Source of the DNA: Hahella chejuensis KCTC 2396
GTDB taxonomy: Bacteria; Pseudomonadota; Gammaproteobacteria; Pseudomonadales; Oleiphilaceae
DNA: 64,000 nucleotides
Assembly (NCBI RefSeq): GCF_000012985.1
Contig: NC_007645.1
Location: 6,164,001 to 6,228,000, forward strand
Direction: 5' to 3'
The notes under the pieces are model-generated. The model was not told the DNA's origin. It worked only from the letters and a program-made list of their open reading frames with translations, and made no database searches. The position numbers were made by a program, and so were the translations under genes. Below, piece after piece: positions 27,776 through 43,573 of the stretch (position 1 is the stretch's first letter; each line of letters opens with the position of its first letter).

Positions 27776-28301
27776 ATGGAACCCTATCTTGGACAGATCA
27801 GCATGATGGCTTTTAACTTCCCCCCCCAAAGACTGGGCTTTTTGCAGTGGAGATCTCCAGCAAATCAGCCAAAACCCAGCGCTCTTCGCCCTAATCAATA
27901 CCTATTATGGAGGGGATGGCAGGACGACCTACGCTTTACCTGACTTGAGAGGCCGAGCGCCGGTACACATGGGCCGGTTATCTCAATACACATATACCCT
28001 GGGACAGAAAGAAGGGACGGAGACCGTAACCTTAACTGAAAGCACATTACCCAGGCATACTCACACTGTTTACGCCTCATCGGAAGACGCCGATAAAGGA
28101 GGCCCCAATGACCAGCGCATATTGGCCGCCACTCCTGATATCTACCGTCCGCTCACAAATCCTGTCCCCATGAATTCTAATGCTGTCGGCATGACTGGCG
28201 GTAACAGTAGCGGAGGTACAACGCCTTTCCCAAACATGCAACCTTCACTGGCGATAAACTTCTGTATTGCTATTTCAGGCTACTTTCCCCCGCGCAACTA
28301 A
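27776..28301 (+). pseudogene. Phage-tail-collar-domain protein, frameshifted in a C8 tract
   Basis: Reading from an ATG with AAGGAGC upstream gives MEPYLGQISMMAFNFPP and then loses homology after a run of eight C. Removing one C restores a continuous ~174-residue protein (..DWAFCSGDLQQISQNPALF.. to ..AINFCIAISGYFPPRN) that matches its three downstream paralogues at the Y-YGGDGRTT, LPDLRGRAP and PRHTHT positions. So this is either a real frameshift, a phase-variable gene switched off in this isolate, or a sequencing error in the homopolymer. The intact product would be an Mdp-like tail-collar (PF07484-type) protein. Confidence 0.8.
27820..27827 (+). repeat. Homopolymer C8 tract inside the frameshifted tail-collar gene
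   Basis: Eight consecutive C follow AACTT. Seven C would keep the collar-protein frame, so slippage by one base would turn the gene on. Confidence 0.8.
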
Positions 28302-28417
28302 AGAGGATTTACAGGAATGCCTACTTTATCGACTAGCTCGATTAGTACCAACCATATTCCTCAACGTCGAACTTTACTCATGACCCAAGCGCGTCTTCAG
28401 AAACGGAGGTCACAAGC

Positions 28418-28948
28418 ATGTCATTGCCTTTCATTGCCGAAATAAGAATTTTTGGGTTCAACTACCCTCCCCGCAGTTGGTCATTTTGTAGTGGGCAAAT
28501 CATCCCTATCGATGAAAACCAAGCCCTTTTCGCCTTGATAGGCTCCATTTACGGCGGCGACGCCAGGGTGACAATGGGGCTTCCCAATCTTCAAGGGCGC
28601 AGCCCTCTTCACACAGGTAAAGGCCCAGGCCTCACTGAGCGCCAGTTAGCAGATTATGGTGGATTGCCGGAGGTTGAGCTTGCAGCAGCACAGATACCTC
28701 CTCATACACACACCTTATCCGCAGCTAAGCAAGCAGGAACAACTTCAGAGCCCACTGGCCAGCTGTTCGCCTATCAGGCCGGGGACGTACAACCTGACTA
28801 CAAACAGCCGCCACTTGGGGATCTGCAGGCGATGTCTCCAGGAATGTTGGCGTACGCAGGCCAGAGTTCAATGGTTGAAAATCGCCAGCCTTTTTTGGGA
28901 CTTTCATTCTGCATAGCCTTAGATGGAATTTTTCCACCGCGAAACTAG
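28418..28948 (+). CDS. Phage-tail-collar-domain protein (Mdp-like)
   Basis: This 176-residue protein is built on the tail-collar repeat: N-terminal IAEIRIFGFNYPPRSWSFCSGQ, then IDENQALFALIGSIYGGD, GLPNLQGRSPLH, IPPHTHTL and the C-terminal FCIALDGIFPPRN. Homologues include the microcystin-dependent protein MdpB and phage short-tail-fibre collars. There is no signal peptide. It has a GGAGG ribosome site and is the second of four tandem paralogues; it is most similar to the fourth. Function outside phage is not established. Confidence 0.85.
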   Translation: MSLPFIAEIRIFGFNYPPRSWSFCSGQIIPIDENQALFALIGSIYGGDARVTMGLPNLQGRSPLHTGKGPGLTERQLADYGGLPEVELAAAQIPPHTHTLSAAKQAGTTSEPTGQLFAYQAGDVQPDYKQPPLGDLQAMSPGMLAYAGQSSMVENRQPFLGLSFCIALDGIFPPRN

Positions 28949-29025
28949 AGGCCCAGCATCTTTCGTCATAGGTATTTCGCATACGTCGATACAGAGACCG
29001 CCGCGGCGGACAAGGAGAGGAAAAA

Positions 29026-29565
29026 ATGGCAGATTCATATATTGGTGAGATACGTATTTTCGCAGCTACTTTCGCACCACGTAACTGGAGCTTTTGCGAT
29101 GGACAGGTATTGGCGGCCTCGCAGCAGGCCGCTTTATTTAGCTTACTGGGAAGTTTTTATGGGGGGGATGGAAGGACCACATTCGCCCTACCGGATATGC
29201 GTGGCCGTCTTCCTTTGCACTTTGGACAAGGGCCTGGACTAACCCCCTACGCTATTGGAGCCAGAGTCGGCGTGGAATCCGTTACTGTGACGATGGAAAA
29301 CATGCCGCCGCACACCCACACGCTTATGGCGTCGAATGACGCCGTCACTGTTGATGTCTCTCCCTCAAATCAAGTGACCGGCGTTACTGACCCCGCAGCT
29401 CCGTTTTACACGACGACAGGCAATATAACGCCTCTGGCGTCAGAGGCAGTGGGATACGCAGGAGGCGCTCAAAATCAACAAACCTCCCCACACTCCATCA
29501 TGATGCCCTATTTAGCGTTGAACTTTATAATCTCGTTAAAGGGCGTATATCCAAGTCGCAACTAA
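29026..29565 (+). CDS. Phage-tail-collar-domain protein (Mdp-like)
   Basis: This 179-residue paralogue carries the collar signatures ADSYIGEIRIFAATFAPRNW, SFCDGQVL, LFSLLGSFYGGDGRTTFALPDMRGRLPLH, MPPHTHTLMAS and C-terminal NFIISLKGVYPSRN. The HTHT histidines match the metal-binding collar motif seen in phage fibres. It has a strong AAGGAGAGG ribosome site and no secretion signal. Its central insert differs from the second and fourth copies, so the copies are old duplications rather than recent ones. Confidence 0.85.
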   Translation: MADSYIGEIRIFAATFAPRNWSFCDGQVLAASQQAALFSLLGSFYGGDGRTTFALPDMRGRLPLHFGQGPGLTPYAIGARVGVESVTVTMENMPPHTHTLMASNDAVTVDVSPSNQVTGVTDPAAPFYTTTGNITPLASEAVGYAGGAQNQQTSPHSIMMPYLALNFIISLKGVYPSRN

Positions 29566-29583
29566 CCAAAGGAGTGTGGAGTT

Positions 29584-30114
29584 ATGTCCGAACCATTTAT
29601 CGCAGAAGTCCGCATATTCTCGTTTGATTTCCCTCCTGCAAGTTGGGCGTATTGTGACGGACAATTGTACGCTATAGGTCAAAACCCAGCTTTATTCTCT
29701 CTTATTGGAACCCTCTACGGAGGCGATGGAAGAACGACTATGGGCTTACCTAATCTTCAATGCCGAAGCCCGTTGCACGCTGGGACAGGCTTAGGCCTGA
29801 CGCCTCGCCCTTTATCCAGCCTTGGAGGAACTCCCTACACAGTGCTTGATGAGATACAAATCCCCCCCCACACACATGCCCTCAAGGCAGTTGCTTCCCG
29901 CGGGACAACCCCTGAGCCGCAGAATCAGCTATTCGCCTATCAAGGGGGCGACCCTCAGCCTGATTACAAGCAATCTCCATTGGGCGATCTCGTGCCGATG
30001 CATCCTCAAATGCTGGCCAATACGGGCAATAGCGGTGCGCTCGATAATCGGCAACCCTTTTTGACTCTCTCTTTCTGTATCGCGCTTGACGGTATTTATC
30101 CACCAAGAAACTAA
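29584..30114 (+). CDS. Phage-tail-collar-domain protein (Mdp-like)
   Basis: This 176-residue fourth paralogue begins SEPFIAEVRIFSFDFPPASWAYCDGQ and ends LSFCIALDGIYPPRN, with QNPALFSLIGTLYGGDGRTTMGLPNLQ and IPPHTHALKA between. Its closest relative here is the copy at 28418 (shared GDxQPDYKQxPLGDL). It starts 18 nt after the previous gene with AAGGAGTGTGGAG, so they form one operon. A hairpin follows its stop. Confidence 0.85.
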   Translation: MSEPFIAEVRIFSFDFPPASWAYCDGQLYAIGQNPALFSLIGTLYGGDGRTTMGLPNLQCRSPLHAGTGLGLTPRPLSSLGGTPYTVLDEIQIPPHTHALKAVASRGTTPEPQNQLFAYQGGDPQPDYKQSPLGDLVPMHPQMLANTGNSGALDNRQPFLTLSFCIALDGIYPPRN

Positions 30115-30128
30115 AAGCCGAACCAGAT

Positions 30129-30147
30129 AAGGGCGCTATGCGCCCTT
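30129..30147 (+). terminator. Hairpin ending the tail-collar operon
   Basis: AAGGGCGC-TAT-GCGCCCTT is a perfect 8-bp stem starting 15 nt after the last collar gene. It is followed by CATTAAAT rather than a clean T-run. Confidence 0.6.
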
Positions 30148-30187
30148 CATTAAATCACTCACCAAAAGCCAGGCTGGATAACCGCTA

Positions 30188-30487
30188 TCAATTACCCACT
30201 TTGTAACTGAATACCGACTCATACAAATAGCAGTCGTCTTTTTCCGCGACGGGTACGATAAAGATATCGTGCGCTCCACAATTATCGTTTTTAACCGCGC
30301 AGGTTTGTTGCGGCATCAGGCCTTTGTCTTTTCCCGCTTTAAATATCACCGAGAAGCTTTCAAAGCCGCCTCCCAGCTCTTTTTTATCCGACACTTCCAC
30401 CAGCGTTAACTCTAAAGGCGGCTGGCTGGAATCATAAGTCGCGTAGAAAGTTTTATCTTGATTGGATTGAAACTGGTCGTGGGTAAA
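30188..30487 (-). CDS. DUF6916-like small protein
   Basis: This 99-residue protein (MFTHDQFQSNQDKTFYAT..) has the FxVIFKAGKDKGLMPQQT and DIFIVPV-ExDxxxYESVF pattern of the DUF6916 group of single-domain beta-rich proteins that I associate with tail-collar gene sets. The start is the ATG 6 nt after AGGGAG; longer starts overlap or lack that site. It faces the collar operon convergently. There is no signal peptide or catalytic motif, and its role is unknown. Confidence 0.65.
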   Translation of the reverse strand, partial: FTHDQFQSNQDKTFYATYDSSQPPLELTLVEVSDKKELGGGFESFSVIFKAGKDKGLMPQQTCAVKNDNCGAHDIFIVPVAEKDDCYLYESVFSYKVGN

Positions 30488-30639
30488 CATCGGCATCTCC
30501 CTGCTGTGTTCTATTGAGGTATAACCAGATTGCAGGCGCAGATTAATGCGCACGCCAACTAAGTATAGACAAACTAATGAAAGCCGGGCCGACGCAATAC
30601 ACTCCTCGTTAGAGAAAGCCCTGCGCGGACGGACTTAAC

Positions 30640-30751: not shown

Positions 30752-31036
30752 ATGGAAGCCATCACAAGGGACGATGTGGTCATGCATAGTGACAAACAGG
30801 TTTCCTGCTCTGTCGATCAAGGCGTTGTCGTCATGCACGTCAATGCCGGTGAATTCTACGACTTAAACCATTCCGCGTCCGATGTCTGGAGGCTATTGGA
30901 CTCTCCTACAAAAGTGTCGACACTGTGCGATCGCCTTCGCGAGAAGTATAACGTCGACTCCGAGCGCTGCGAAAAAGATGTACTCAACCTGCTCAATCGT
31001 TTGCAGGAAAAAGGCGTCATCGAAGCGCAAAAATGA
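30752..31036 (+). CDS. PqqD-like RiPP recognition protein (lasso B1 type)
   Basis: This 94-residue protein has the PqqD/RRE winged-helix pattern: early strands (VSCSVDQGVVVMHVNAGEFYDL), the NHSASDVWRLLDSP helix, and a C-terminal LNRLQEKGVIE helix. Such domains bind leader peptides and deliver them to processing enzymes; in lasso systems the free-standing version is B1. The ATG follows GGAGG with ideal spacing; an upstream in-frame start does not. It sits 75 nt before the 45-residue precursor gene on the same strand, which makes the substrate evident. Confidence 0.85.
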   Translation: MEAITRDDVVMHSDKQVSCSVDQGVVVMHVNAGEFYDLNHSASDVWRLLDSPTKVSTLCDRLREKYNVDSERCEKDVLNLLNRLQEKGVIEAQK

Positions 31037-31111
31037 ATACGCCAAAAGAACAACTTCCACGCCTCTCCTGCAGTGTGGCCACATTCAATTTAAATAAAGG
31101 GTATTTACACT

Positions 31112-31249
31112 ATGGATCAGGAAAACGAAGAAACCAAAGTTACAGAAGAATGGGAAACACCTGACTTCACTGTCATGGACGCCAATCAGGCGCAAAACTT
31201 TGTTGGCGACGGACTTGACGGGGGATTTGGCGGAGACTCTCGCTCCTAG
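31112..31249 (+). CDS. Candidate RiPP precursor peptide (45 residues)
   Basis: This short acidic peptide starts MDQENEETKVTEEWETPD and ends FGGDSRS. Trp14-x-x-Pro17-x-Phe19 followed by V-M-D matches the (Y/W)xxPx(L/F) leader motif that PqqD/B1 proteins read in lasso precursors. By analogy with the paeninodin precursor (from memory), the core would start about 12 residues after the proline, at Asn29. That gives a 17-residue Gly/Asp-rich core with an acidic residue at position 8 (Asp36) and a C-terminal Ser45. The usual Thr two residues before the core is Ala27 here, and Asn is an unusual first core residue. AAAGGG precedes ATG. The gene lies between a PqqD homologue and an HPr-kinase-like gene. 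Confidence 0.7.
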   Translation: MDQENEETKVTEEWETPDFTVMDANQAQNFVGDGLDGGFGGDSRS

Positions 31250-31266
31250 CCCCGGCCAGGCGTCAC

Positions 31267-32166
31267 TCAAGCTGTAGACGCCTCTAATTCCCGCGCTGCA
31301 AGCATATCCACGATACTTATTGCTTCCGACATCAATTTAGGGCGCTGCAAAGAATAAACAGACGTAACGCCTGCAAGCGTCGCGCATGCATTCAGCATCA
31401 TTTTCCGCTGCTCAAGCGAGACCAGAAACACCTTTCTGAAGCAGTGTTCAAATAACCCTGCTATCGCCTCTTGTGGCGTTAGCTTCTGCAATGAAAGCTC
31501 CCTTCCTTCCGTCAAGATATAGACACTTTGTACAAAAGCTTTTTTTAGAGAGAAGTTACGACTCGCCGGATAGCAGTGTTTGACCCTGGTTTTAAAGGGT
31601 AGACGAGGATGATTCTCCGGCGTTTCCCCCATTGTCAACAATATTTCCGATGATAGCTTAAGTCTTGGGAAACCAGGGCATAAACTAACCTCGCTCCCCT
31701 CTAACGATAATGGACAAATATCGTCACTCAAAAGATCACAACCTTGATAATAGAAGAGCCCCGCCATACTTGATTTTCCGGCGGTCTTATTACCGCAAAA
31801 CAACAGCGCGCCTCCACTTGGCAGGCGCACAGCGGAAGCATGCAGCACTAGTCGCTTACGCCATTGCAATATCGCCCCCATGCATGACCCCAGTACATGG
31901 GCATAGATACTCCAACTTTGTGATGACTCGCCAGGTGTGATGACTATGCGCGATGGACGCACCCAGAATCGCCCGCCATCGTCATCAAATATTAATGCTT
32001 CGCTTTCTGTCGCCTGATAGCGTTTACCTTGCTTCAACGCTCTTTCGAGTCTGCCTGGCGTTTCTCCAATCACGATGGTGAGGTCAGAACCGTCACCGCC
32101 TCGCACTAACCAGGGAAATTCAAACTCCGCTTGAATCTGTAATCCATAAGCTTGGTAATTGTACAT
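31267..32166 (-). CDS. HPr-kinase-like protein of RiPP loci
   Basis: This 299-residue protein has a P-loop GNKTAGKSS (Gly125-Ser133) followed by LLSDDICPL, the layout of HprK-type kinases, and a divergent N-terminal half. It lacks the HPr-recognition part of true HPr kinase/phosphorylase. Such proteins are common in lasso clusters; the one in the paeninodin cluster phosphorylates the C-terminal serine of the precursor. The precursor here also ends in Ser. The gene is transcribed convergently with the precursor (17-nt gap). A GAGGG ribosome site is present. Phosphorylation of this peptide is inference. Confidence 0.8.
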   Translation of the reverse strand: MYNYQAYGLQIQAEFEFPWLVRGGDGSDLTIVIGETPGRLERALKQGKRYQATESEALIFDDDGGRFWVRPSRIVITPGESSQSWSIYAHVLGSCMGAILQWRKRLVLHASAVRLPSGGALLFCGNKTAGKSSMAGLFYYQGCDLLSDDICPLSLEGSEVSLCPGFPRLKLSSEILLTMGETPENHPRLPFKTRVKHCYPASRNFSLKKAFVQSVYILTEGRELSLQKLTPQEAIAGLFEHCFRKVFLVSLEQRKMMLNACATLAGVTSVYSLQRPKLMSEAISIVDMLAARELEASTA

Positions 32167-32216
32167 GCGCTATTGTCCCTCAAACCGCTTTCTTCCCGTG
32201 TGTTTTGGACTACGCT

Positions 32217-32299
32217 TATATCAATCCGGCAGGCAAATGGATTTCTTCCATTTGCCTGAGACGACAGGGCTCGCGTATGTCGGGCCAGTCTCTCGCGGC
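32217..32299 (-). repeat. Two-hairpin dispersed repeat, copy 4 (reverse, diverged)
   Basis: ATCAATCCGGCAGGCAAATGG, loop, CCATTTGCCTG, then ACGACAGGGC..GTCGGGCC and TCTCTCGCGG: the full element order in reverse with several changes. It sits in the 288-nt spacer between the HPr-kinase-like gene and the 2OG-oxygenase gene. Confidence 0.7.
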
Positions 32300-32454
32300 T
32301 CCTCGCCGCCAAGATAATAATTTATCGCAATGGCGATCATCTGCAGTTGGGCCATTAATAATAAAAATGTATAGCCGCAGATGCTTCATACCACAAGCAG
32401 GGTCCTGAAGCAGGTCAGTTCAGCGGAGATATTGCTGCACAAGGGGCCAGACCC

Positions 32455-33294
32455 ATGGACACGCTAGATCTGATTCAACTCGCCAGAACCTATATTTCCT
32501 ATGATAAGTTCGATAAAGCTGCGTCGGCTCTCAGCCAGCGCCTGTATATCAATCCAAACTGCCCGCAGGCGCACGACTTACTCAAAACTATCTCTGACCG
32601 CAGAGAACCGAATTACGGCGTCATTCCATCCCCACGCATAGTTATTTCTGATTTCTTGCCCCGAGTACGCGTTGATGAACTCCTGACGCTCGCGGAACAA
32701 CGCATCAGCAGATTTGAACCAGGAAAAGTTTCAGGCGCCAGAGAAATTGCGCCGGAGAGGAGAAACAGCCTGCGCCTGAGAGACCCTCTTATAGAGAAAA
32801 AGCTCAACGATTGGTTTTCTCCACACTTTCGCAAGAGGCTAACAGACTACTGTTCTCAGTTAGACGTCGCCCTGTTCGAGATCAGTGAAATAGAGCTGAA
32901 ATTTTGCTGCTATCCTAATGGAGCCTATTTCCATATCCATCGCGACGACCAAGCGCCTAACAGTGAAGCAACAGGCATGCGAACGCCTGGCGTGCGCAGG
33001 ATCAGCTTTGCTTACTATTTCCACCGCCGCCCTAAAAGCTTTACAGGTGGAGAGCTACAGCTCTACGCCACCGACAGGAAGCACGATATCTACTCTCGCC
33101 ACCGAATAGAGTCCATTCCCCCTCACTTCAACACCTTGGTCCTATTTCCCAGCGGCTTTTACCACGAAGTCCTAAAAATCACGGAAACATCTGGAGAGAT
33201 AATGAACGGCAGGTTCGCCATCAATGGCCATATTTGCGAAGCATTTCGTTCTCAAGAGAGCACAAAAAAAGCAGTGAAGGGAGCAAACTCATGA
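32455..33294 (+). CDS. 2-oxoglutarate/Fe(II) oxygenase in the RiPP locus
   Basis: This 279-residue protein has a short TPR-like helical N-terminus (residues 1-50) and a prolyl-4-hydroxylase-type double-stranded beta-helix. Iron ligands are His162-Arg-Asp164 and His237 (GFYHEV), with Arg253 as the 2OG anchor (NGRFAINGH). The spacing is normal for active enzymes. Its stop overlaps the cyclase start by 4 nt (ATGA), implying translational coupling, so hydroxylation of the precursor peptide is a reasonable expectation. Confidence 0.82.
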   Translation: MDTLDLIQLARTYISYDKFDKAASALSQRLYINPNCPQAHDLLKTISDRREPNYGVIPSPRIVISDFLPRVRVDELLTLAEQRISRFEPGKVSGAREIAPERRNSLRLRDPLIEKKLNDWFSPHFRKRLTDYCSQLDVALFEISEIELKFCCYPNGAYFHIHRDDQAPNSEATGMRTPGVRRISFAYYFHRRPKSFTGGELQLYATDRKHDIYSRHRIESIPPHFNTLVLFPSGFYHEVLKITETSGEIMNGRFAINGHICEAFRSQESTKKAVKGANS

Positions 33295-35183
33295 GTGGTA
33301 TCGCTGGGTTATACCATGCAAAAAAAATCGTCACTGACGCAGACCTTCGCGCCATGTCAGACGCCATGTCGCACCGAGGCCCGGATGGAAGCAATGTTTG
33401 GCGGCAGGCGCAGCTCGGCTTTTGTCACAACATGCTGCACACCACGCCAGAGTCTTTGTTTGAAGCATTGCCCGCAGAGTCGCATGACCAGCGAGTTGTA
33501 ATTACCGCAGATGCTCGCCTGGACAACCGAAAAGAGCTTGCCTGCGCACTGGGAATAAATCGAAGCGACTTGCCCCTGCTGAGTGACAGCCAACTCATTC
33601 TTATGGGTTATCTTCATTGGGATTTGGCGTGTGTGAGCCAATTTCTGGGCGATTTCTGTTTCGCCATCTGGGACAAAGACAGGCGTCGCCTGTTTATCGC
33701 TATGGACCCGATGGGAACCCGGTCGCTACTCTATTTCCACTCCCCTGACCTATTTGCTTTCGCAACAGATGTCAAAGCCTTGCTAGCCGCCCCGGGAGTG
33801 GACAAAAAGCTGGATGAGTCGGGGTTTGTCCTTCTGGCGTCAGGTCGCAGACGGGAAGCGCCTGAGCGCACATGCTTTGAAGGCATAACCAGGCTTACCG
33901 GCGGCGAGCGCTTATGCGTTCATCCTCCCTCTTCCGGGCAAGCAGGTTGGAAGATTGAGAAACGCAGTTACTACACTCTCCAACCTGAAACGCTCAACTT
34001 CAAACATCCAGAGGAAATGCTTGAGGCGTTTCGAGAGAAATTCCGACTGGCGGTGACTTGCCGAATGCGCAGCGCCTTCCCCGTAGCCACGCTTCTTAGC
34101 GGCGGACTGGATTCTTCCGCTATCAGCTGCATGGCCGCTGACCAGCGGCGCCACTTCTCCCATCCCCTTATCGCACTGTCATCCTGCCTGACAGATCAAG
34201 ATCCTGAGCAGGATGAAAGACGATTTATTAGTATCGTTGCGCGCCAAAAGCAGTTGCCTGTTCATTACGTAACGCCCACGTCCGGTCCCGCCGCGTTACT
34301 GCACCAAGTACACGACATGACCGGCCTTCCCGTTAACCTCAATCCACATGTCTATACAGCGCTCTACGCCAAAGCGCAGAGTGAGGGCGCCCGCATTGTA
34401 ATGGATGGCGTCTGCGGCGAGTGGGGACCCAGCTGGACTGGAGAGGGTTATTTACAGTATTTGCTACAACAACTGCATTGGAAAACACTGAAGGAAACAG
34501 TCCTCAGTTTGTCTCAAAACTATTCCCAGTCTCCTCACAGGGTATTCCAGAACGACGTTCTAGCTCCATTGGAACCCAGGTTCCTCCGCAATATACGATA
34601 TAAATTGAGAGGGCGCTCGGTAGAGGAAAACAGGCTTCCCCTGACCAACAGACTCTACCATCAACATGCGGCCCCACCGCCTGAGGCCAAGTCATCAGAC
34701 AAGTCGCTTCTGGGAAAACGGCTAAATGTCATACTTGGTGGCCGCACGCCTAGAGAATGGTATTCACCACACTTTCATATTCGCAACACCTTTCCTTATT
34801 TAGATGAGCGGGTATTAAAGTTTTGCCTGGGGTTGTCGGATGAATGGTTCATACAGAAAGGCTGGCGCCGTTATTTCATTCGCGCCGCGATGGAAAAAAC
34901 GCTTCCTCCAGAAATTCAATGGCGTAGAGATAAAAGACCTTTTTCGCCAAATTATCACAGGCTGATGCAAACTGACGCCCCTGTCTACGAGAGTATTGTT
35001 CAAGACGTTTCTCCATCAGATCCGGTAAGAGACTATATTGATGTTGAAAGGATCAAACGCACGATAAAAGAGCTCAATCAACGCCCTTCATGGGGACCAT
35101 ACAACGGCGTCGATTTCGCGAGGAAAGTGGTGGATTTCGGGGTACAGAGCCTGATATTTCTTCGCTGGTTTCAGCGACTCTAG
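33291..35183 (+). CDS. Asparagine-synthetase-like lasso/RiPP cyclase
   Basis: This 630-residue homologue of asparagine synthetase B has an N-terminal glutaminase-like fold (MSGIAGLYH..MSHRGPDGSN) and a C-terminal ATP-pyrophosphatase domain with SGGLDSS from Ser270. The catalytic Cys2 of glutaminases is Ser, so it cannot release ammonia from glutamine. This is typical of lasso cyclases (C proteins), which adenylate an Asp/Glu side chain for attack by the peptide N-terminus. The ATG follows GGGAG and overlaps the oxygenase gene. It converges with the exporter gene (14-nt gap). Confidence 0.85.
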   Translation: MSGIAGLYHAKKIVTDADLRAMSDAMSHRGPDGSNVWRQAQLGFCHNMLHTTPESLFEALPAESHDQRVVITADARLDNRKELACALGINRSDLPLLSDSQLILMGYLHWDLACVSQFLGDFCFAIWDKDRRRLFIAMDPMGTRSLLYFHSPDLFAFATDVKALLAAPGVDKKLDESGFVLLASGRRREAPERTCFEGITRLTGGERLCVHPPSSGQAGWKIEKRSYYTLQPETLNFKHPEEMLEAFREKFRLAVTCRMRSAFPVATLLSGGLDSSAISCMAADQRRHFSHPLIALSSCLTDQDPEQDERRFISIVARQKQLPVHYVTPTSGPAALLHQVHDMTGLPVNLNPHVYTALYAKAQSEGARIVMDGVCGEWGPSWTGEGYLQYLLQQLHWKTLKETVLSLSQNYSQSPHRVFQNDVLAPLEPRFLRNIRYKLRGRSVEENRLPLTNRLYHQHAAPPPEAKSSDKSLLGKRLNVILGGRTPREWYSPHFHIRNTFPYLDERVLKFCLGLSDEWFIQKGWRRYFIRAAMEKTLPPEIQWRRDKRPFSPNYHRLMQTDAPVYESIVQDVSPSDPVRDYIDVERIKRTIKELNQRPSWGPYNGVDFARKVVDFGVQSLIFLRWFQRL

Positions 35184-35197
35184 AGTGTGAAGCCCCC

Positions 35198-36937
35198 TTA
35201 TTGGATGCTCTGCAGCCCCTGAGAGGAAATTCTGCGACTCTGAACTTCGCCGTTTTCCATATGTACGACAAAGTCCGTACAGGACAGCAACGCTTTTCGA
35301 TGGGTGATGATAAGCACTGTAGTCATTTTTTTCAGTTCGCGGATAGCCTCAATAATGACAGTTTCATTCTCCTCATCCAAAGCGCTGCTAACTTCATCCA
35401 GGATAAGTAAAGCCGGCTTTCTCAATAGCGCTCTGGCCACTGCAAGACGCTGCTTTTCACCTCCTGATAACAAATCGCCCCGCTCACCGATAAGGGTATC
35501 TATGCCTTGAGGCAACGCTTTGACAAACCTTTCCGCCGACGCATTCCGCAATGCTTCCCATAGTTCATCCTCCTCAATCCCAGGCGCAGCCCAAAGCAAA
35601 TTTTCACGAACACTCTTGTTAAACAAGAAACTCTCCTGCGTCACATAACTAACCGAGTGGCTCCATTGCGTAATCTCTTGTTCACTTAGCTCTTTCCCAT
35701 CAATTAGCACCTGTCCATTGGACGGAGTCAGCAGCCCTGACAGAATATCCGCAGCGGTAGTTTTTCCAGAGCCGGAAGGCCCAAGCAACGCCGTAACGCT
35801 GTTAACAGGCAAAGTGATAGAAAAGTCACGGAGCGCGTATGTCCCTGGCGTCGACAAATAGGAAAAACTTACACGTTCGAGACGGACGCTTCGTGTCGCC
35901 ACTATCGGTTTCACTTCTATGCTCTTATCGGACAAACCTTCCTCCACGTCGCCGTTTAATATGCACACCACTTCGCTATACGAAGGCAGGATATTGAGAA
36001 TCTGCTGATACCGATAAGACATATCCTTCAAGATTGGCGCGAATCGGGAAAAAAGCAAAAGCAACACAATAAATTCAGCCGCAGGCAGCTTCACCCATCT
36101 AATAAAAAAATAACAGAGTCCAACCAAACAAACCGCGATGAGTATTTCATAATACAGGGTGACTAATGCACTGATTTTCTTAAACCTTAATAATGCACAT
36201 CCTAATCGGCGGCTTTGCTCTTCCAGATCAACACCAGCGCGCTTTTCCTGCTTGAACGCTTTTACAACTTTCATTCCTTGCATATATTCGCTTACAGCGG
36301 AGAAATAAGCCTGGCGAAGCACTTTCCCTTCCTCCCCATTGCGGAGACTCAGCCGATTCAAGCAACGTGAACCCGCGTAAATCCCGCCACCACTCACCAG
36401 CGCCACCAGAGTCAAGCCAGGGGACGTCAGATAAGAAACAACACTGTACACACCAAGCACGCAACTCAAAGAAACAAGCTGAACGAGCAAGAGAGATATT
36501 TGCGAGGCTCTATCCACCTCGTGATTTAAAACCTGGGCTAAATGAGAGACTCGAAACTGAGTGAAGCGCAACCAAGAAAAAGCCAGCATCTTCGCTGTCA
36601 GCCGTCCTCTGAGGTTAAGAGCAAGTTCCGTCTGCAACTTTGCAGCGAGTGTCTGCTGGAAGTATTTAATCGTAGAATAAACAACGATAATCACGATGAA
36701 GATAATCAATGCTTCGTTAAGCTCCAGCATGGAGCCTAGCCAACTCCATTGGGAGCCCAGCTCATACCCGGCGTCGACTCCCGCCAAGGTCAACAACGGA
36801 ATCAACGCCAACAGGCCAACCCCCTGAACAAAAGCCAAAGCAAAAAGCAGCGTCGTGAGCAGAACGATGCTGCGCTTGTCGTAACGCCACGACATCACGA
36901 CGTATGAGGAAATACTTTCTTTAATGTCCTGTTTCAA
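35198..36937 (-). CDS. ABC exporter (fused membrane and ATPase domains)
   Basis: This 579-residue half-transporter has about six membrane helices in residues 20-310 and an ATPase domain with Walker A GPSGSGKTT, signature LSGGEKQR and Walker B ALLILDEVSSALDEE. There is no N-terminal C39 peptidase domain, so it exports without cleaving a leader. In lasso loci the equivalent D protein exports the product and gives self-immunity. It lies directly downstream of the nucleotidyltransferase gene on the same strand (18-nt gap). Confidence 0.85.
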   Translation of the reverse strand: MKQDIKESISSYVVMSWRYDKRSIVLLTTLLFALAFVQGVGLLALIPLLTLAGVDAGYELGSQWSWLGSMLELNEALIIFIVIIVVYSTIKYFQQTLAAKLQTELALNLRGRLTAKMLAFSWLRFTQFRVSHLAQVLNHEVDRASQISLLLVQLVSLSCVLGVYSVVSYLTSPGLTLVALVSGGGIYAGSRCLNRLSLRNGEEGKVLRQAYFSAVSEYMQGMKVVKAFKQEKRAGVDLEEQSRRLGCALLRFKKISALVTLYYEILIAVCLVGLCYFFIRWVKLPAAEFIVLLLLFSRFAPILKDMSYRYQQILNILPSYSEVVCILNGDVEEGLSDKSIEVKPIVATRSVRLERVSFSYLSTPGTYALRDFSITLPVNSVTALLGPSGSGKTTAADILSGLLTPSNGQVLIDGKELSEQEITQWSHSVSYVTQESFLFNKSVRENLLWAAPGIEEDELWEALRNASAERFVKALPQGIDTLIGERGDLLSGGEKQRLAVARALLRKPALLILDEVSSALDEENETVIIEAIRELKKMTTVLIITHRKALLSCTDFVVHMENGEVQSRRISSQGLQSIQ

Positions 36938-36955
36938 ACCTCAGCCCTTTGAATG

Positions 36956-38149
36956 CTATTCGACCCTGACCCTTTTCCTGGAAAAAAAGTATCGCCAACT
37001 CCATAAAAAGGGCCGCAACAGGTAGTAGCAAGGAAACATCCATCTGGGAAGCTTGAGAAGCGCGATATCATTAGCCGATATACGGAAAAACTGAGTTAAG
37101 TGGCGCATCAAATACTTTTTCCTGAATGAAAAAAAACATAGCAGTACATATTGCTCAACTGGACTTAGATAAGTTTTGCGCTGATTCGCTCGTTCCCACC
37201 TGGAGCACAGCAAGCGTACGAACGGATTACTTTTTGCGAGCGCTTCCTGCGCCGCTGGCAAAGGCGTAAACAATAACTTTTGAGTCATGATCATTGCAGC
37301 AAGGACGGGGTGCTCGACTCCCCATCGACGTGCTTTATCCATGACTGCGTTGAGATCGACTTCTCCCCCGGATAAGTATGCGTCGATATCAGATAGCCAG
37401 CTTAATCTGGCCCAACAGGACCTGGCCCCATGCATCGCCAGATAAACGAACTCGTCTTCAGCGCTCAGGCAAGCGCGCCCGAACTCGTTCTTATGGCAAG
37501 AGTATTCTTGCTCAAATAATCCTTTTCCCAGCTCAGGGAGCACATATTCGTTGTCGTCCAAGCGCATGTGCAACTCAAGAAAAATATCTCTCAATGCATT
37601 ATGAAAAATGAAATCTTTATTGCTATTCAGGTAGGCTTCCACCACAAGGGGTGAAGCGCTCTCAGCTGGAGTAACTCGACGATAACCCGCCTCCGACAAT
37701 AAACGCTCTATCAACGCAACATGCTCGCGCGGCGCCAGCACATCTAAATCGCGACATTCTCTGAGCGAGGCGTCCTGATACAATCTCTCCGACAAAGCTG
37801 GTCCTTTCAGGCAAACATAGGGCAACCTGTTGGTTTGCAAAAGCCCGCCAATTCTTTCAAGTTCAGCGTAGTGCTTAAGGTTACGCAGCCGGGCTTCCCG
37901 CTCCATCAGGCGGATTTTTTTACGGACTCCGCCTGGAACCGACTCGCCAGCCGCACTTAAATTTCGCCACACTAATGGCGTTACCCGATGCCACCTTAGC
38001 TGTTGTAAAAAGCACTCCCAATCCGAGCTTTCAAGTTGTGAGCAGGTCTCTTTAAGGGCCGACAACGGAGCTGCGCTATGAGCCAGACACATGCGTAACA
38101 ATTGATAAGACGCCTGACGGTTCATCCCTGCAGCGTCTGCTATAGTCAT
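36956..38149 (-). CDS. Nucleotidyltransferase-family protein (NTP_transf_5-like)
   Basis: This 397-residue protein has a mid-N-terminal YVCLKGPALSERLYQDASLRE segment followed by RDLDVLAPREH, the K-G-x(n)-R-D-x-D pattern of the uncharacterised nucleotidyltransferase family (PF14907-like) common in lasso-type loci. A poly-basic end (FFSRKRVRVE) is notable. It overlaps the acetyltransferase stop by 4 nt and precedes the exporter. In related clusters such proteins are thought to modify the phosphorylated peptide, but no activity is proven here. Confidence 0.75.
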   Translation of the reverse strand: MTIADAAGMNRQASYQLLRMCLAHSAAPLSALKETCSQLESSDWECFLQQLRWHRVTPLVWRNLSAAGESVPGGVRKKIRLMEREARLRNLKHYAELERIGGLLQTNRLPYVCLKGPALSERLYQDASLRECRDLDVLAPREHVALIERLLSEAGYRRVTPAESASPLVVEAYLNSNKDFIFHNALRDIFLELHMRLDDNEYVLPELGKGLFEQEYSCHKNEFGRACLSAEDEFVYLAMHGARSCWARLSWLSDIDAYLSGGEVDLNAVMDKARRWGVEHPVLAAMIMTQKLLFTPLPAAQEALAKSNPFVRLLCSRWERANQRKTYLSPVEQYVLLCFFSFRKKYLMRHLTQFFRISANDIALLKLPRWMFPCYYLLRPFLWSWRYFFSRKRVRVE

Positions 38150-38661
38150 ACCATCACACGCTGCACGATCTCAGGCCGCCACATCATGCGTTCATAGGGA
38201 GGCAAGATGGATTCTGTGACAAATCCCAGTTTCAAATAGAGTTTTTTCGCTGCGACATTCTGCATCAGCACGCTGAGCGTCAGCGGCGCGCAGATTTGTG
38301 CGGCGGCGGCTTGCAGGCTGCGGATGACTTCCTCTCCAAAGCCTTTGCCGCGCGCTTGCGGAATAAAAGCGATATCGATGACATGCACTTCGTTATGGCC
38401 GAAATCGATGGTGACTTTACCGATACGCTCATGTTGCTTTTCAATGACGAAATACATGGCGTTGGGAAATTGCGCGCCATATCCTTGCTGCTGCGCTTTG
38501 AACTGCATGTCGATGATGGATTCGACGAAATCGCGCTCGCCGTCTATCAGACGCAAGTCCTCTCGCGTACTGTTATGAAGTTGCTCCAGAAACGCTTTAT
38601 CAGAAGCGGTAGAGGGGCGGACAACCAGGCCCTGCCCTAATTTCACATCCTTCACTTTCAT
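38146..38661 (-). CDS. GNAT-family N-acetyltransferase
   Basis: This 171-residue GNAT protein has the acetyl-CoA-binding motif FIPQARGKGFGEEVIRSLQ and C-terminal NVAAKKLYLKLGF. The start is the ATG with AAAGGAATT upstream; a longer form adds 20 residues without support. It heads a three-gene minus-strand unit (acetyltransferase, nucleotidyltransferase, exporter), so it may modify the RiPP product or confer self-protection. The substrate is unknown. Confidence 0.82.
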   Translation of the reverse strand: MKVKDVKLGQGLVVRPSTASDKAFLEQLHNSTREDLRLIDGERDFVESIIDMQFKAQQQGYGAQFPNAMYFVIEKQHERIGKVTIDFGHNEVHVIDIAFIPQARGKGFGEEVIRSLQAAAAQICAPLTLSVLMQNVAAKKLYLKLGFVTESILPPYERMMWRPEIVQRVMV

Positions 38662-38821
38662 AATTCCTTTACCCCTTTTTATTAAATCCGGCCCTCGAAA
38701 TGAACCGGGATGCGCCCTCATCCATGCAACAAGTATAGCTCGCGCCTGAGTGATGCAAGGCTCGCTGAGTCATTGGACTCTATGACAAAGCGTCCTCGAC
38801 GACACCCGGCGATTTTTTCAT

Positions 38822-39259
38822 ATGTCGCGCTATCAGGGCCCCAAACCGGAGTTCATGATGTCGCCCGCCAGTTTGACGTATATGAGATTTCAACAGCGCC
38901 CCGTACAACGCCTGTTCGCTGGCTACGCAGCCAGCCTGACGCCCGACCCTCCCCACGAAATGCTTTGCCAGGATATGCTGTTGACTGCGCTGCGGGAGCA
39001 ACAATATCTGCGCCCCCATACCGACAAAGGAACGGGAGTAAAAAGACATGTGTGTATCGTATTTTACCTGTCGCCGGACTGGCGGGAGGAAGATGAAGGC
39101 GGCCTTAAGATTGAGACGCCGCCAGGAGAAACAATCATCCTATCCGCCCTCTTTAATCGCTGCATCATCTTCAAACCAAACCTGCTTCATAGCGTTACGC
39201 CCTTCGCCAGGTCCGCAGCGGGAAAGGTGCGTTACAGCCAGACTATCTGGTACGCCTAG
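38822..39259 (+). CDS. Short 2OG/Fe(II) oxygenase
   Basis: This 145-residue protein is close to the minimum for a prolyl-hydroxylase-type core. Putative ligands are His66-Thr-Asp68 (YLRPHTDKG), His123 (NLLHSV) and 2OG-binding Arg137 (KVRYSQ). The upstream frame is closed by a stop 38 nt before the ATG, and no good ribosome site is seen. Its last 17 nt overlap the 3' end of the convergent sulfotransferase gene. An active enzyme is plausible; a truncated remnant cannot be excluded. Confidence 0.65.
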   Translation: MSRYQGPKPEFMMSPASLTYMRFQQRPVQRLFAGYAASLTPDPPHEMLCQDMLLTALREQQYLRPHTDKGTGVKRHVCIVFYLSPDWREEDEGGLKIETPPGETIILSALFNRCIIFKPNLLHSVTPFARSAAGKVRYSQTIWYA

Positions 39260-40385
39260 CCTGAAGTAAGCGAGCGTAGAGGCCGTCCAGCCTCTGGGAA
39301 ATCATGTTGGCGTCTTGCGCTGAGAATATGCGGCGCTTGTCCTCGCTGTCCCCCTGAAAAGACCGGCTTGGGTCTTTCGAGTATTGTCCCGCTCTGCTCT
39401 TCAGATGCTGCCGGTCATCCGCAGAGAAAGACACGCCAAAGTGATCTGCGATGCGGTTCTCTACGGCGCCAGGAAGCTCCGTGTAATCCACAACCAGTAC
39501 AGTGCTATCCAGCGACTGCGCCATGCTGTTCATAAGCGCGGCCAATACCTCCATTTGGTAAGACAGCAACACGTCCGAGGCGGCGTCATCCACTTTTGAA
39601 ACAAGATGCGACAATACAGACAAATCTGTTGTCGCCATATGCCTTCCGGCAAGCCTTTGATGAGACGCCAGTATTTCTTCTGGCCGCCGAATTACAAACA
39701 CCGATGGCGAGTCGGGATAGAGCTGGCGCAGCAGCGGCCAGAAGCCAATATCCCAGGCGTTCCACTTCACAATCAGATCCTGATCGCAGCCTCCCGCCAG
39801 CCCTTGCGCAGCCAGCAGAAAACGTAGCGCTTCCGCTTTTTGATTCTTCGCCATATCCTTGTCCAGCAATAACTCCGTCAATACGCTGGATTCTGAGATC
39901 ACGCAGTGCGCGGGAGAGACGGCCAACAAGTTTGACACCAGTGTCGAGCCGCAACGGGACAGATGAAAAATAAAGCCGGCGGGGCGTACTTCATGGAACA
40001 AATGGGAATGCCGGATCAGATACTCGATACGTGTAGCAGGTTTAATGATACCTCCAATAATCGAACGCGCTCTTTGCGTGGCGATGCGCTCATCCCAAAA
40101 AGGCGCCCAGTCTTGTGCGATCGGCGCCACGCCCCATATCACACGTTTGCGCGCGGCTTCATAACGCACTGGCGTCCACTGGCGCAACAGCAAAGGCAGG
40201 TTTGGTTCGAACTCCTCATTGTTGCAGGCCATGAGCGCTGATACAGGGTCAGATTCGCCTTGTTCCTCAACACGGGTATACCCTTTTAAAGTGGAAAGTA
40301 AATCATCAAACTGATGGCAGGCCATACACTGGGCTAACGCCTCTTCTGACTCAAGCAGCCGCGAATAGACCTCGCGACTATCCAT
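39243..40385 (-). CDS. Sulfotransferase-like protein
   Basis: This 380-residue protein has a PAPS-binding loop-like motif FHLSRCGSTLVSNLL (Ser143 region) and a later FVIRRPEEILASHQR segment matching the 3'-phosphate-binding part of sulfotransferases. The first ~130 residues are an extra domain I do not recognise. The ATG overlaps the methyltransferase stop (8 nt), so it is coupled, and GGAGG lies upstream. It is the last gene of a five-gene minus-strand unit with oxygenases, suggesting sulfation of a hydroxylated product. That is inference. Confidence 0.75.
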   Translation of the reverse strand: MDSREVYSRLLESEEALAQCMACHQFDDLLSTLKGYTRVEEQGESDPVSALMACNNEEFEPNLPLLLRQWTPVRYEAARKRVIWGVAPIAQDWAPFWDERIATQRARSIIGGIIKPATRIEYLIRHSHLFHEVRPAGFIFHLSRCGSTLVSNLLAVSPAHCVISESSVLTELLLDKDMAKNQKAEALRFLLAAQGLAGGCDQDLIVKWNAWDIGFWPLLRQLYPDSPSVFVIRRPEEILASHQRLAGRHMATTDLSVLSHLVSKVDDAASDVLLSYQMEVLAALMNSMAQSLDSTVLVVDYTELPGAVENRIADHFGVSFSADDRQHLKSRAGQYSKDPSRSFQGDSEDKRRIFSAQDANMISQRLDGLYARLLQARRTR

Positions 40386-41691
40386 GCAAAGCCTCCAGCT
40401 CATCCATTACCCTGGCGTTGATGGAGGACGCCCGCTGAGCGCTGATGTCTTCCTCTGACGCTTCTTTAAACCACTGTTCAACGTCCTGAAAGCGCCGACT
40501 TTGATATATCGTCGCCAGGGCCTTTTCCATCGGCGCGCCCAACAGTTCAAACACCAACTGATCCAGCAGCCACTCTCGTCTCCGAACCGCTTCATCCAGC
40601 TTACCCGCCTTGGCGTATGCGGCTTTCGACCATATCCGTTTGAGGTGATACACGCCCAACTCTCCCACTTCCGTACTGTCGGGTAAAGGAAGGTCCTCCG
40701 TCGCAGGACGACTGCGATAGGAGAACTCAAAATCCGGGTAATCATTCAGGCGGTAGTGAAAATCCAGCTTGCTACCGGGAACCGGTCGTATGTTTTTCTT
40801 ATATCTGGGCAAAGTCAGCTGCGACTGATTCTCCTGCAGACAATGATCGCCATAAATTCGGATAAACGTCGTTACCTTAAGATCCGTCATACCCTCGTCG
40901 CATTCGGGGATTAACAAAGAACCAGAGAGACAGGAGTCATCGCCGGCATGGAGCGCCGCCGCCGTCGACCGATCCAGCGTAAGCAGCTCACCCAGGTGGA
41001 TATTCTTACCGCTTTCCGAAGAATGCAGCCAGGCGTCCAGCTGCACTGACGCCGGTATCAACATACCAGTCGGTTTTAGAAACTGTTGCAAGTGAGAAAA
41101 TATCTTCACTTGCGGCTCCTGTTGCAGCATATGCTTCATCGTCTCCGATAGCAGAATGTCATAGGACTCGCCATTGGGAGGCGTCCAGACCGTGGCGTCT
41201 GCGCAGGCGATATGAGCGACCCGGTCCGAGACCTTCAGCAGAGCAATCACCTTCTGCAACGCCTCCAGCGAAGCCTCATGAATGTCCAGCAGCGTCACTT
41301 TCAATTTATCCGCAGGAAACAACGGCGCCAGCGGCGCCAATAGAAGCCCGAATGGTCCGGTTCCCGCATACAGCAGCTCCACCCTGTCCTGTCGCTGCAA
41401 TACATCCTGTATCGCCTGATAGACGCCCGCCATGAATATTCGCGTGCGCTCGATATCCCAGGCGCACCTGCCCGCCTCCAGAGGCGAAATCGCCTTACCA
41501 AACCCAGTCTGGGTAGACAAGTCTTCGTTATAGCAGGAAGGATAAAGATCAATTCCCGTCACCGTCGCGAGCGCACTGACCAGCGCATCCAGGTGGGGCT
41601 TGGCGGCGGCGGAGGTCGCGCACAGTAATTTTTGCGTTGTCTCGATAATGCCGTCGGCGTTTATGGGATTATTGGCTCCAGCATCAGTCAT
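40378..41691 (-). CDS. PRMT-like methyltransferase with a C-terminal shared domain
   Basis: This 437-residue class I SAM methyltransferase has motif I LLYAGTGPFGLLL (residues 106-118), then VTLLDIHEASLEAL and a DILLSETMKHML segment recalling the double-E region of protein arginine methyltransferases. A beta-barrel-like part follows. The last ~100 residues (from LPDSTEVGELGVYHLKRIW) align almost without gaps to the N-terminal region of the adjacent PhyH-type enzyme, so they form a separate shared domain. One copy of the ~35-bp element lies just upstream of the start. Confidence 0.78.
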   Translation of the reverse strand: MTDAGANNPINADGIIETTQKLLCATSAAAKPHLDALVSALATVTGIDLYPSCYNEDLSTQTGFGKAISPLEAGRCAWDIERTRIFMAGVYQAIQDVLQRQDRVELLYAGTGPFGLLLAPLAPLFPADKLKVTLLDIHEASLEALQKVIALLKVSDRVAHIACADATVWTPPNGESYDILLSETMKHMLQQEPQVKIFSHLQQFLKPTGMLIPASVQLDAWLHSSESGKNIHLGELLTLDRSTAAALHAGDDSCLSGSLLIPECDEGMTDLKVTTFIRIYGDHCLQENQSQLTLPRYKKNIRPVPGSKLDFHYRLNDYPDFEFSYRSRPATEDLPLPDSTEVGELGVYHLKRIWSKAAYAKAGKLDEAVRRREWLLDQLVFELLGAPMEKALATIYQSRRFQDVEQWFKEASEEDISAQRASSINARVMDELEALHG

Positions 41692-41713
41692 CGTTGCATT
41701 CCTTTTGTTATAA

Positions 41714-41750
41714 ATATGGCAATGATATTGGCATGTTAATAATCAGGCGC
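41714..41750 (-). repeat. ~35-bp operon element, copy 1
   Basis: The + strand reads ATGGCAATGATATTGGCATG then TTAATAATCAGGCGC. It overlaps the stop codon of the PhyH-type gene and lies 23 nt upstream of the methyltransferase start. The core CAAT-GAT-ATTG is dyad-like. Near-identical copies are at 43528 and 44598. Confidence 0.75.
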
Positions 41751-42846
41751 AGGGAAGCGGCGTCATATTTAAATATTGCACGACACGCGGCGTCGCAGCC
41801 CTGTTCGGGCTTGCGCCATGGGGCAGATAGTGATGCCAGATGATCAGCGAGCCCGCAGGCGCGGCGACATACTTGAGTTTAAAGTGGGAGAGATCTTGTT
41901 GATTCGGGTCTGCGCCAGGAGGCAGTTGCGCCATCCAGTCGATCATTTGGCGATGAAAGCCTGGCGCGCAATGAAAAGCGCCCTGATTCTCCGCGACGTC
42001 GGTGAGATAGATAAGGCCTTGTGTGCGCAATTCCGGCGCGCGACTGAAGTCCACGTCCCAATGCAGCCGGGTTCCAAAAAACTGATATAGCGGCGTTTCC
42101 GGCGGATTAAACCCCGCCCGGTCAATCGAGCACTGTAAGCTTTCCGTTCCCCAGATATCTGCAAATGCCTGACGCATTTTTTCGGAAGAACGATTGGCGT
42201 CCAGCACGGGATCACGAAACAATTGCACCATGATGTTTTGCTGCGCCTGATGCGCGAGATACCATGTCTCCGGTCGATCCGGACTTTTCTGCAAAAAGCG
42301 ATAGATTACGTCAACAGAAGCCTGGCATTGAGGCTTATCCAGCACACCTTCCACCACCAGGTATCCATTCTCACGCCAGAACGCAATCTGACTCTCACTT
42401 AGATATTTAGGCGCATCGCCACACCACGGCCCCTCCAGGATTTCCCTGGCGTTCAGCTGCTGTGTGTACGCCCCGGCCCGATAGTCGCCCAGAACTCGGT
42501 TAATATCGTCGATACGCGCTTTGCTTAAACCGCCCGGGTTCTGTTTCAAGACCCAGCTTTCGAACTCGGCGAAACTCGGCTCACCGCAATAGAGAAAGCC
42601 CAGGCACTGATCAAGCCCCAGCCCCAACAGATTCATCAGCGCCACATCTGTTCGCCATTCCTCCTGTCGAAGCCGTTCCTCCAGCTTGCCGCATTTATTC
42701 AAGCGCGTCTTATGCCAAAGCCGCTTGAGACGTTGCACGCCAAGACTTCCCACTTCTTCCGCAGAAGGCAGCTTTTCGTATGTTTGAGTCTGAGGGGTTG
42801 AATTGGATGACCGAGCCCCGGAGCCAGTATTAGGGACATAGCTCAT
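41743..42846 (-). CDS. Phytanoyl-CoA dioxygenase-family enzyme with an N-terminal shared domain
   Basis: This 367-residue protein has two parts. Residues ~26-120 (LPSAEEVGSLGVQRLKRLW..) match the C-terminal domain of the neighbouring methyltransferase. From ~150 on it is a PhyH-type 2OG/Fe(II) dioxygenase with His262-Trp-Asp264, His343 (LPHGASPN) and a following Arg (TPRVVQYLN). The ligand set is complete, so it should be active. The start overlaps the upstream hydroxylase gene by 17 nt, indicating coupling. The substrate is unknown; peptide-bound residues are a plausible target. Confidence 0.8.
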   Translation of the reverse strand: MSYVPNTGSGARSSNSTPQTQTYEKLPSAEEVGSLGVQRLKRLWHKTRLNKCGKLEERLRQEEWRTDVALMNLLGLGLDQCLGFLYCGEPSFAEFESWVLKQNPGGLSKARIDDINRVLGDYRAGAYTQQLNAREILEGPWCGDAPKYLSESQIAFWRENGYLVVEGVLDKPQCQASVDVIYRFLQKSPDRPETWYLAHQAQQNIMVQLFRDPVLDANRSSEKMRQAFADIWGTESLQCSIDRAGFNPPETPLYQFFGTRLHWDVDFSRAPELRTQGLIYLTDVAENQGAFHCAPGFHRQMIDWMAQLPPGADPNQQDLSHFKLKYVAAPAGSLIIWHHYLPHGASPNRAATPRVVQYLNMTPLPCA

Positions 42847-43450: not shown

Positions 43451-43527
43451 TCCCTGAAATCCTTCTTACTTTGGCCATAGGCGCCGATATCCAGCAAGCT
43501 GGCGCAAATATTTACCTACTAATATTA

Positions 43528-43560
43528 ATATGGCATTGATATTGGCATGTTAAAAATCAG
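43528..43560 (-). repeat. ~35-bp operon element, copy 2
   Basis: The + strand reads ATATGGCATTGATATTGGCA then TGTTAAAAATCAG. It differs from copy 1 at only a few positions. It lies 14 nt beyond the stop of the degenerate hydroxylase gene and ~80 nt upstream of the intact one. Confidence 0.75.
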
Positions 43561-43573
43561 CCATCGGCGCTGG

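Follow-up and report, generated by a model that had tools for sequence, protein, structure and literature searches.

The window analysed here is a stretch of 64,000 nucleotides from Hahella chejuensis KCTC 2396 (NC_007645.1, positions 6,164,001 to 6,228,000), an organism whose genome is a single contig of 7,215,267 bases. It carries a gene cluster that very probably makes a lasso peptide and whose leader peptidase, B2, appears to be encoded elsewhere in the genome. The cluster opens with B1, a PqqD-like recognition protein of 94 residues for a ribosomally synthesized and post-translationally modified peptide (RiPP) (30752..31036, plus strand; PF05402, 73.5 bits), whose ATG is preceded by GGAGG, and continues with A, a 45-residue precursor (31112..31249, plus strand) recognized by a four-species alignment, a synonymous bias and tblastn/blast similarity to related precursors. 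There follow K, a predicted HprK-like P-loop kinase (31267..32166, minus strand; a weak TIGR04352 match, GKS and DD motifs, and a profile comparison with the PDB), a 2-oxoglutarate (2OG)-Fe(II) oxygenase that we predict to be a core hydroxylase (32455..33294, plus strand; PF13640, 55.5 bits), and C, the asparagine-synthetase-like lasso cyclase (33291..35183, plus strand; NF033535, 439.7 bits; PF00733, 116 bits), whose start overlaps the oxygenase stop (ATGA). The last two members are D, an ABC exporter with membrane domain and ATPase (35198..36937, minus strand; PF00005, 112.7 bits; PF00664, 26.8 bits, just under the cut-off of 28), and N, an NTP_transf_5 nucleotidyltransferase-like protein (36956..38149, minus strand; PF14907, 210 bits). 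A GNAT acetyltransferase gene (38146..38661, minus strand; PF00583, 43 bits), whose stop overlaps the start of N, flanks the cluster. A preliminary description of this DNA had listed these eight genes, and each of them is borne out, as is its remark that the exporter carries no peptidase domain, there being none among the 13 Pfam matches of D.

The identity of the cyclase rests on several features. Its score of 439.7 bits against the lasso cyclase profile NF033535 compares with 182.4 bits against the asparagine synthetase profile TIGR01536, and a tree built from 11 lasso-type and 24 AsnB-type sequences separates the two types (100/100). This tree does not include the cyclases of G002, G562 and G289; the start of its G015b row is uncertain, and the branch of that row is very long. 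The window cyclase starts with MSGIAG at 33291 and lacks the glutaminase Cys; MCG stands 0-27 residues after the upstream stop in all 24 AsnBs, and the Cys is absent from all 10 lasso-type rows with a clear start. An ordinary asparagine synthetase is ruled out by the tree grouping and by this start without the N-terminal catalytic Cys. The preliminary description had named, as the finding that would speak against a lasso system, a cyclase grouping with ordinary asparagine synthetases and no conserved small peptide; the cyclase groups with the lasso type, and the peptide is conserved. The nearest relative of the Hahella cyclases in the tree is that of G135 (100/98), and those of G015a and G288 are also near, less firmly (87/82). 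A class-wide survey of 369 genomes with NF033535 placed the window's genomic match (365 bits) second after G193 among the matches listed, followed by G283, G135, G289 and G288, with the remainder starting at about 275 bits; none of the 369 genomes reaches the curated cut-off of 525 bits. One further locus, L064 of G287, was dropped as an ordinary AsnB that starts with MCGI. An order-wide search at 1e-90 gave matches in 2 of 390 genomes, our own and G562 (an assembly marked 9% contaminated), a scan of genome contigs gave 2 loci only, and a plasmid search with the cyclase as query returned five records at 26-36% identity, none close, among which H1 is annotated beside a lasso B2 and H5 is annotated as a lasso cyclase.

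The precursor could be followed through the genus, in a comparison of our genome with six other Hahella genomes (G001-G006; n = 7). Peptide A is kept in four of the seven at 89-91%, with a nearly invariant leader, a variable core and a C-terminal Ser; the only variable positions are 10, 11, 28-31, 35 and 39. Each of the six pairs shows more synonymous than non-synonymous codon differences (from 20 vs 5 down to 8 vs 7). Because of this conservation and this bias, the 45-residue peptide is a real gene and more than a chance reading frame. The leader comprises residues 1-28, with WETPDF at -15 to -10, and the predicted core of residues 29-45 is NFVGDGLDGGFGGDSRS in the window, NLPGDGLDGGFGGDSRS in G004, GLVGDGADGGAGGDSRS in G001 and GLPGDGVDGGAGGDSRS in G005, so that its residue 1 is Asn in the window and G004 and Gly in G001 and G005. 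Asp8 of the predicted core would be the acidic ring residue, giving an 8-residue ring and the tail GGFGGDSRS; other starts (25-28, 30, 34-36) also give a ring of 7-9. These alternative cut sites are allowed by the four Hahella peptides alone and disfavoured by the register of three related precursors. We sought precursors beside eight related cyclases by means of the aromatic-xxPx-aliphatic motif, and in three of the eight candidates (L011, L112 and L116) counting 15 residues past the aromatic residue leads to an acceptable residue 1, an Asp8 and a C-terminal Ser. The cores are GGVGIPNDGLSSTPS in L011 (ring GGVGIPND), SGATSGIDPDSGS in L112 (ring SGATSGID) and NDIGAGMDGGTTPGISES in L116 (ring NDIGAGMD), and the W at -15, residue 1 and Asp8 align in these three and the four Hahella precursors. 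By tblastn, A resembles the precursors of L112 (E 7.6e-5) and L116 (E 0.001).

The preliminary description had noted that no B2 lies in the window and proposed a whole-genome search for one; the window does lack a B2, and the search located one. At a threshold of E 0.001 the genome holds a single match to PF13471 (Transglut_core3), at G000:C1:1192761-1193096, and the open reading frame around it scores 85.5 bits against NF033537 (lasso_biosyn_B2; curated cut-off 33). All 12 aligned B2s keep its Cys and His; comparison of the B2, as single sequence and as profile, with the PDB gave no match. This B2 lies at 1.19 Mb and the cluster at 6.19-6.20 Mb, which places them 5.0 Mb apart one way and 2.2 Mb the other way if the chromosome is circular. 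Adjoining it tail to tail, and overlapping it, is a sulfotransferase-like gene, SulfoB (Sulfotransfer_3, 21 bits, cut-off 27), which resembles the sulfotransferase flanking the cluster in the window (28%). Kinship of SulfoB with the sulfotransferases of two related lasso clusters, L011 and L116, was not supported (best blastp E 0.15).

The distant B2 tracks the cluster across the genus. The whole cluster is found in G001, G004 and G005, and at 1e-40 such a cyclase is missing from G002, G003 and G006; B2 orthologs (85-92%) and SulfoB (84-85%) occur in G001, G004 and G005 only, so that the pair is present in 4 of 4 cluster-bearing Hahella genomes and 0 of 3 others. G003 and G006 retain the flanking solute-binding gene (71% at the DNA level) without SulfoB or B2. 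G001 and G005, each a single contig, show the separation too; in G004 the B2 and the cluster are on separate contigs, both near contig ends. Clustering of B2 with A, B1 and C is customary in lasso systems but is no chemical requirement of them. A survey of 58 genomes, our own included (cyclase threshold E 1e-40, B2 threshold E 0.001), found a cyclase in five and a B2 in six, with all five common to both; in the sixth, G002, the B2 lies inside a B1-B2-ABC cluster of its own. Among the six top cyclase genomes of the 369-genome survey, five have a Transglut_core3 match. Within 20 kb around the Hahella B2, tblastn found no cyclase and no B1, and a motif search within about 3-4 kb of it found no convincing precursor.

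Outside Hahella, no more than about 5 kb separates B2 from the cyclase in G193, G283, G015a, G015b, G562 and L013, a locus from a metagenome-assembled genome. The genome G135 is split: one contig holds the cyclase and a precursor-like open reading frame (L060, 8944-11020), and another holds, well inside the contig, HprK, NTP_transf_5, B2 and B1 genes (L111, 7850-10552; the B1 assigned by eye). The cyclase and B2 of G288 are on different contigs, near contig ends, where linkage is not readable. G015 has a third B2 that overlaps an ABC exporter gene (L030, 6354-8569) and is close to the Hahella B2 in the B2 tree; the 16 kb read around it contain no cyclase and no B1. G289 carries a lasso-type cyclase starting MSAICG (L063, 2043-3977) in a draft genome without a Transglut_core3 match. 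Its 8.2-kb contig holds no B2; this cyclase was kept out of the tree and of the count of linked and unlinked B2s. In two of the related loci a CobS/CobT-like pair, an AAA ATPase and a VWA protein, stands between the B genes and the cyclase (L116, 5561-8246, assigned by Pfam; L011, 6136-9033, assigned by eye).

The tailoring genes point to a decorated product. Pfam gives no match for K itself at E up to 0.05, and its TIGR04352 score is only 24.5 bits, but all 10 aligned homologues share its Walker A residues G130-K131-S132 and its D148-D149, and the four best PDB matches of a profile of those homologues are HPr kinase structures (best E 3.5e-7). K is predicted to phosphorylate the C-terminal Ser. 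The lasso kinases PsmK and PadeK are described as phosphorylating this residue and PsmN as adding hexoses (PMC9266682, PMC8498205), and BsfK, a kinase relative, is described as acting on Ser3 instead of the C-terminal Ser (PMC10368454). By analogy with PsmN, N possibly glycosylates, decorating the phosphorylated Ser; comparison of this protein with the PDB gave no match. The 2OG oxygenase has an HRD motif at 162-164 and a later His, and has a distant relative (27%) near a lasso cyclase of G015. By analogy with CanE, which is described as hydroxylating an Asp with help from B1 (PMC9266682, PMC8498205), it possibly hydroxylates the core. Accounts of related clusters record sulfotransferase and nucleotidyltransferase genes (PMC8498205) and mention HPr kinase and sulfotransferase (PMC4289311).

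The right-hand boundary of the cluster was set by the genomes that lack it. In G006, AspH1, a fused methyltransferase/PhyH gene, the sulfotransferase and GNAT stand together, followed by a weak relative of the gene at 30188-30553 of the window (33% over 55 residues, E 6e-4) and three tail-collar genes, and none of the lasso genes has a tblastn match in the 20 kb of this locus. G003 retains AspH1, the methyltransferase, PhyH, the sulfotransferase and a collar gene, with neither GNAT nor lasso genes in the 19 kb read. GNAT, 94.7-96.5% identical in the three cluster-bearing relatives and 67% in G006, was counted in the cluster by the preliminary description; we place it outside because it is kept at the same locus in G006 without the lasso genes. 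GNAT thus forms an older locus with its right-hand neighbours. GNAT, the sulfotransferase, the methyltransferase, PhyH and the Asp/Arg hydroxylase were accordingly rejected as tailoring genes of the peptide, as all occur in lasso-less G006 and all except GNAT also in lasso-less G003. Around the cluster, 27945-30553 and 38146-44206 hold tail-collar genes with GNAT, the sulfotransferase, the methyltransferase, PhyH and Asp/Arg hydroxylases, which looks like a separate modification locus. The methyltransferase (in its C-terminal part) and PhyH (in its N-terminal part) share about 100 residues and form one fused open reading frame in G006 (L040, 6577-8691). At about 38797, some 330 bp of G001, G004 and G005 are absent from the window, just upstream of a small 2OG gene (38822-39259) that is perhaps a shortened version here.

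The cluster itself has not diverged evenly. B1 is 86-94% identical in the three Hahella relatives, and its tree contains no starred branch. Between G005 and the window, identity is only 42-58% for HprK, the 2OG oxygenase, the cyclase, the exporter and NTP_transf_5, against 96% for GNAT, 86% for B1 and 89% for the peptide. In this region (L010, 7427-14103) the enzyme cassette seems to have been exchanged while the precursor was retained, with most flanking genes, B1, the precursor and GNAT at 86-98%; the collar genes of the flank, at only 55-60%, run counter to a plain cassette exchange.

Several characterized systems resemble parts of this one. Paeninodin-type clusters share the split B1/B2, the HprK-like kinase, the C-terminal Ser and the exporter, whereas in Hahella B2 is unlinked, position -2 is Ala rather than Thr, a 2OG oxygenase is added and residue 1 is Asn in two of four species. 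The aromatic-xxPx motif of the paeninodin leader and its spacing resemble those of the Hahella precursor. The pseudomycoidin cluster, as described in PMC9266682, has kinase (PsmK) and nucleotidyltransferase (PsmN) genes together and a C-terminal Ser; Hahella differs in its 2OG gene and in having B2 elsewhere, and its N is a putative counterpart of PsmN. The canucin A cluster likewise contains a 2OG gene (CanE), for which B1-aided hydroxylation of the precursor is the model given (PMC9266682); the canucin target is the C-terminal Asp14, whereas the Hahella C-terminus is Ser, and the Hahella enzyme is a putative counterpart of CanE. Metanodin, presented in PMC12670498 as the first lasso peptide shown with Asn at position 1, has the Asn1 ring residue that we predict in Hahella; it keeps Thr(-2), however, and two sister species of Hahella have Gly1 there. 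A leader protease encoded outside the cluster has parallels in class III lanthipeptides and in the TldD/E of microcin B17, as described in PMC10885120, but those proteases belong to other families, whereas the Hahella enzyme is a dedicated lasso B2. A search of open-licence PMC papers yielded no published Hahella lasso peptide and no published unlinked B2.

Taken together, we favour a lasso-peptide pathway in two pieces, in which the B2 at 1.19 Mb serves this cluster in trans, and give this reading a probability of about 0.75. B1 would bind the leader at WETPDF, K would phosphorylate Ser45 at the C-terminus, N may attach a sugar to this phosphate, and the 2OG enzyme would hydroxylate the core, most likely at an Asp. 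With B1 as its guide, the unlinked B2 would cut after residue 28. C would join the freed N-terminus (Asn1 in the window and G004, Gly1 in G001 and G005) to Asp8, closing an 8-residue ring that is followed by the tail GGFGGDSRS, and the product would be exported by D. We infer the partnership of B2 with this cluster, as we do the cut site, the ring, the threading and each tailoring step. The preliminary description had offered two explanations for the missing peptidase, an unlinked protease or an undescribed class in which the peptide is modified differently. The genome points to the former, in that a B2 found elsewhere follows the cluster across the genus and may be taken to act on the peptide. 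The latter is superfluous, because the cyclase, B1, the precursor register and the C-terminal Ser fit lasso peptides, and an undescribed RiPP class without a leader peptidase is superseded by the B2 in the genome. The system is new in arrangement, not in kind, and no new peptide class is involved.

A number of observations weigh against the two-piece pathway. Two of its profile matches fall under their curated cut-offs, the cyclase below 525 bits and B1, with 61.7 bits against the lasso PqqD profile NF033536, below 80. Five of the eight precursor candidates are off-register; L062, L013 and L029 need a shifted start, and no standard ring results for L061 or for L060, the G135 locus with the nearest cyclase. 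Position -2 is Ala in all four Hahella precursors, where Thr is the rule for lasso leaders, with Ile/Val exceptions known (PMC10368454); L112 likewise has Ala at this position, and L011 and L116 have Thr. Little in the tail is bulky enough to hold a thread in place, and its Phe11 is Ala in two species. The co-occurrence of B2 and cluster has a Fisher p of 0.029 on seven related genomes, and because the four cluster-bearing genomes are close relatives the pattern probably reflects one event. One of the six top cyclase genomes, the G289 draft (90% complete, 520 contigs), lacks any Transglut_core3 match and is counted against the tie between B2 and cyclase. Moreover, 11 of the 16 genomes with Transglut_core3 lie outside those six, presumably because B2 works with other lasso cyclases too. 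A search of our genome with the cyclase gives a single match at 1e-40, but NF033535 gives three at that threshold, two of which are not among the matches listed and hence lie below about 218 bits, in the AsnB range. At these thresholds a cyclase as divergent as the one in G002 (39.8 bits) could be missed. Finally, in a B2 tree of 14 rows the Hahella B2 joins that of G002 and the third B2 of G015 (98/97), and with G015b and G288 these form a starred group (100/98) that excludes G015a, G135 and G562. Because this tree sets apart G135 and G015a, whose cyclases are nearest to Hahella's, the trees indicate that B2 and cyclase have different histories, with B2 coming from another lasso lineage, and the B2 may serve something else.

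That last point can be accommodated in a more specific version of the two-piece pathway, which we put forward only tentatively: the cluster would have lost its own peptidase and would use, in trans, a B2 borrowed from a different lasso lineage and paired with SulfoB, to make a multiply decorated lasso peptide carrying a hydroxyl, a phosphate or phospho-hexose and perhaps a sulfate. The same difference in descent also suits the view that the cluster is of lasso type but a general protease removes the leader, or the cyclase works without B2, while the distant B2 serves an unseen pathway. The G289 draft, with its MSAICG cyclase and no Transglut_core3 match, fits this view, as does the reported synthesis of pseudomycoidin without leader and leader peptidase (Zyubko 2019). 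Against it stand the 4/4 versus 0/3 distribution of B2 in Hahella, the lack of cyclase, B1 or convincing precursor in the tracts searched around B2, and the single cyclase match in the genome at 1e-40, and we consider it improbable. Somewhat less probable still is a related non-lasso RiPP class, in which the macrolactam would be unthreaded (branched-cyclic) or the bond a different one. The Gly-rich tail with few bulky residues, the Ala at -2 and the 17-residue core would suit such a product, but the cyclase falls among cyclases whose B2 is linked, and the cluster L116 combines the canonical Thr(-2) with a similar ring, NDIGAGMD. HPr-rel-A systems are linked to exopolysaccharide, and weak matches to TIGR04352 and TIGR04353 could be taken to suggest one here; both are below their curated cut-offs (24.5 of 200 and 22.8 of 35 bits). 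Such a system, or an ordinary amidotransferase gene set beside a chance small open reading frame, is hardly credible, given also the lack of the glutaminase Cys and a conserved coding peptide.

In a classical lasso cluster the B gene stands next to C; under the two-piece pathway favoured here, the peptidase is encoded elsewhere and yet travels with the cluster in four related genomes, so that some clusters set aside as incomplete may in fact lack nothing. With its kinase, nucleotidyltransferase and 2OG oxygenase combined, the cluster predicts a product of searchable mass, and the natural exchange of Asn1 and Gly1 between sister species, together with a B2 of foreign descent, offers a ready test of the residues that B2 and cyclase tolerate at the cut site. 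If the borrowed B2 is real, then, with the split genome G135, lasso pathways would be modular, and clusters described as lacking B2 would be half-pathways to be completed by looking genome-wide.

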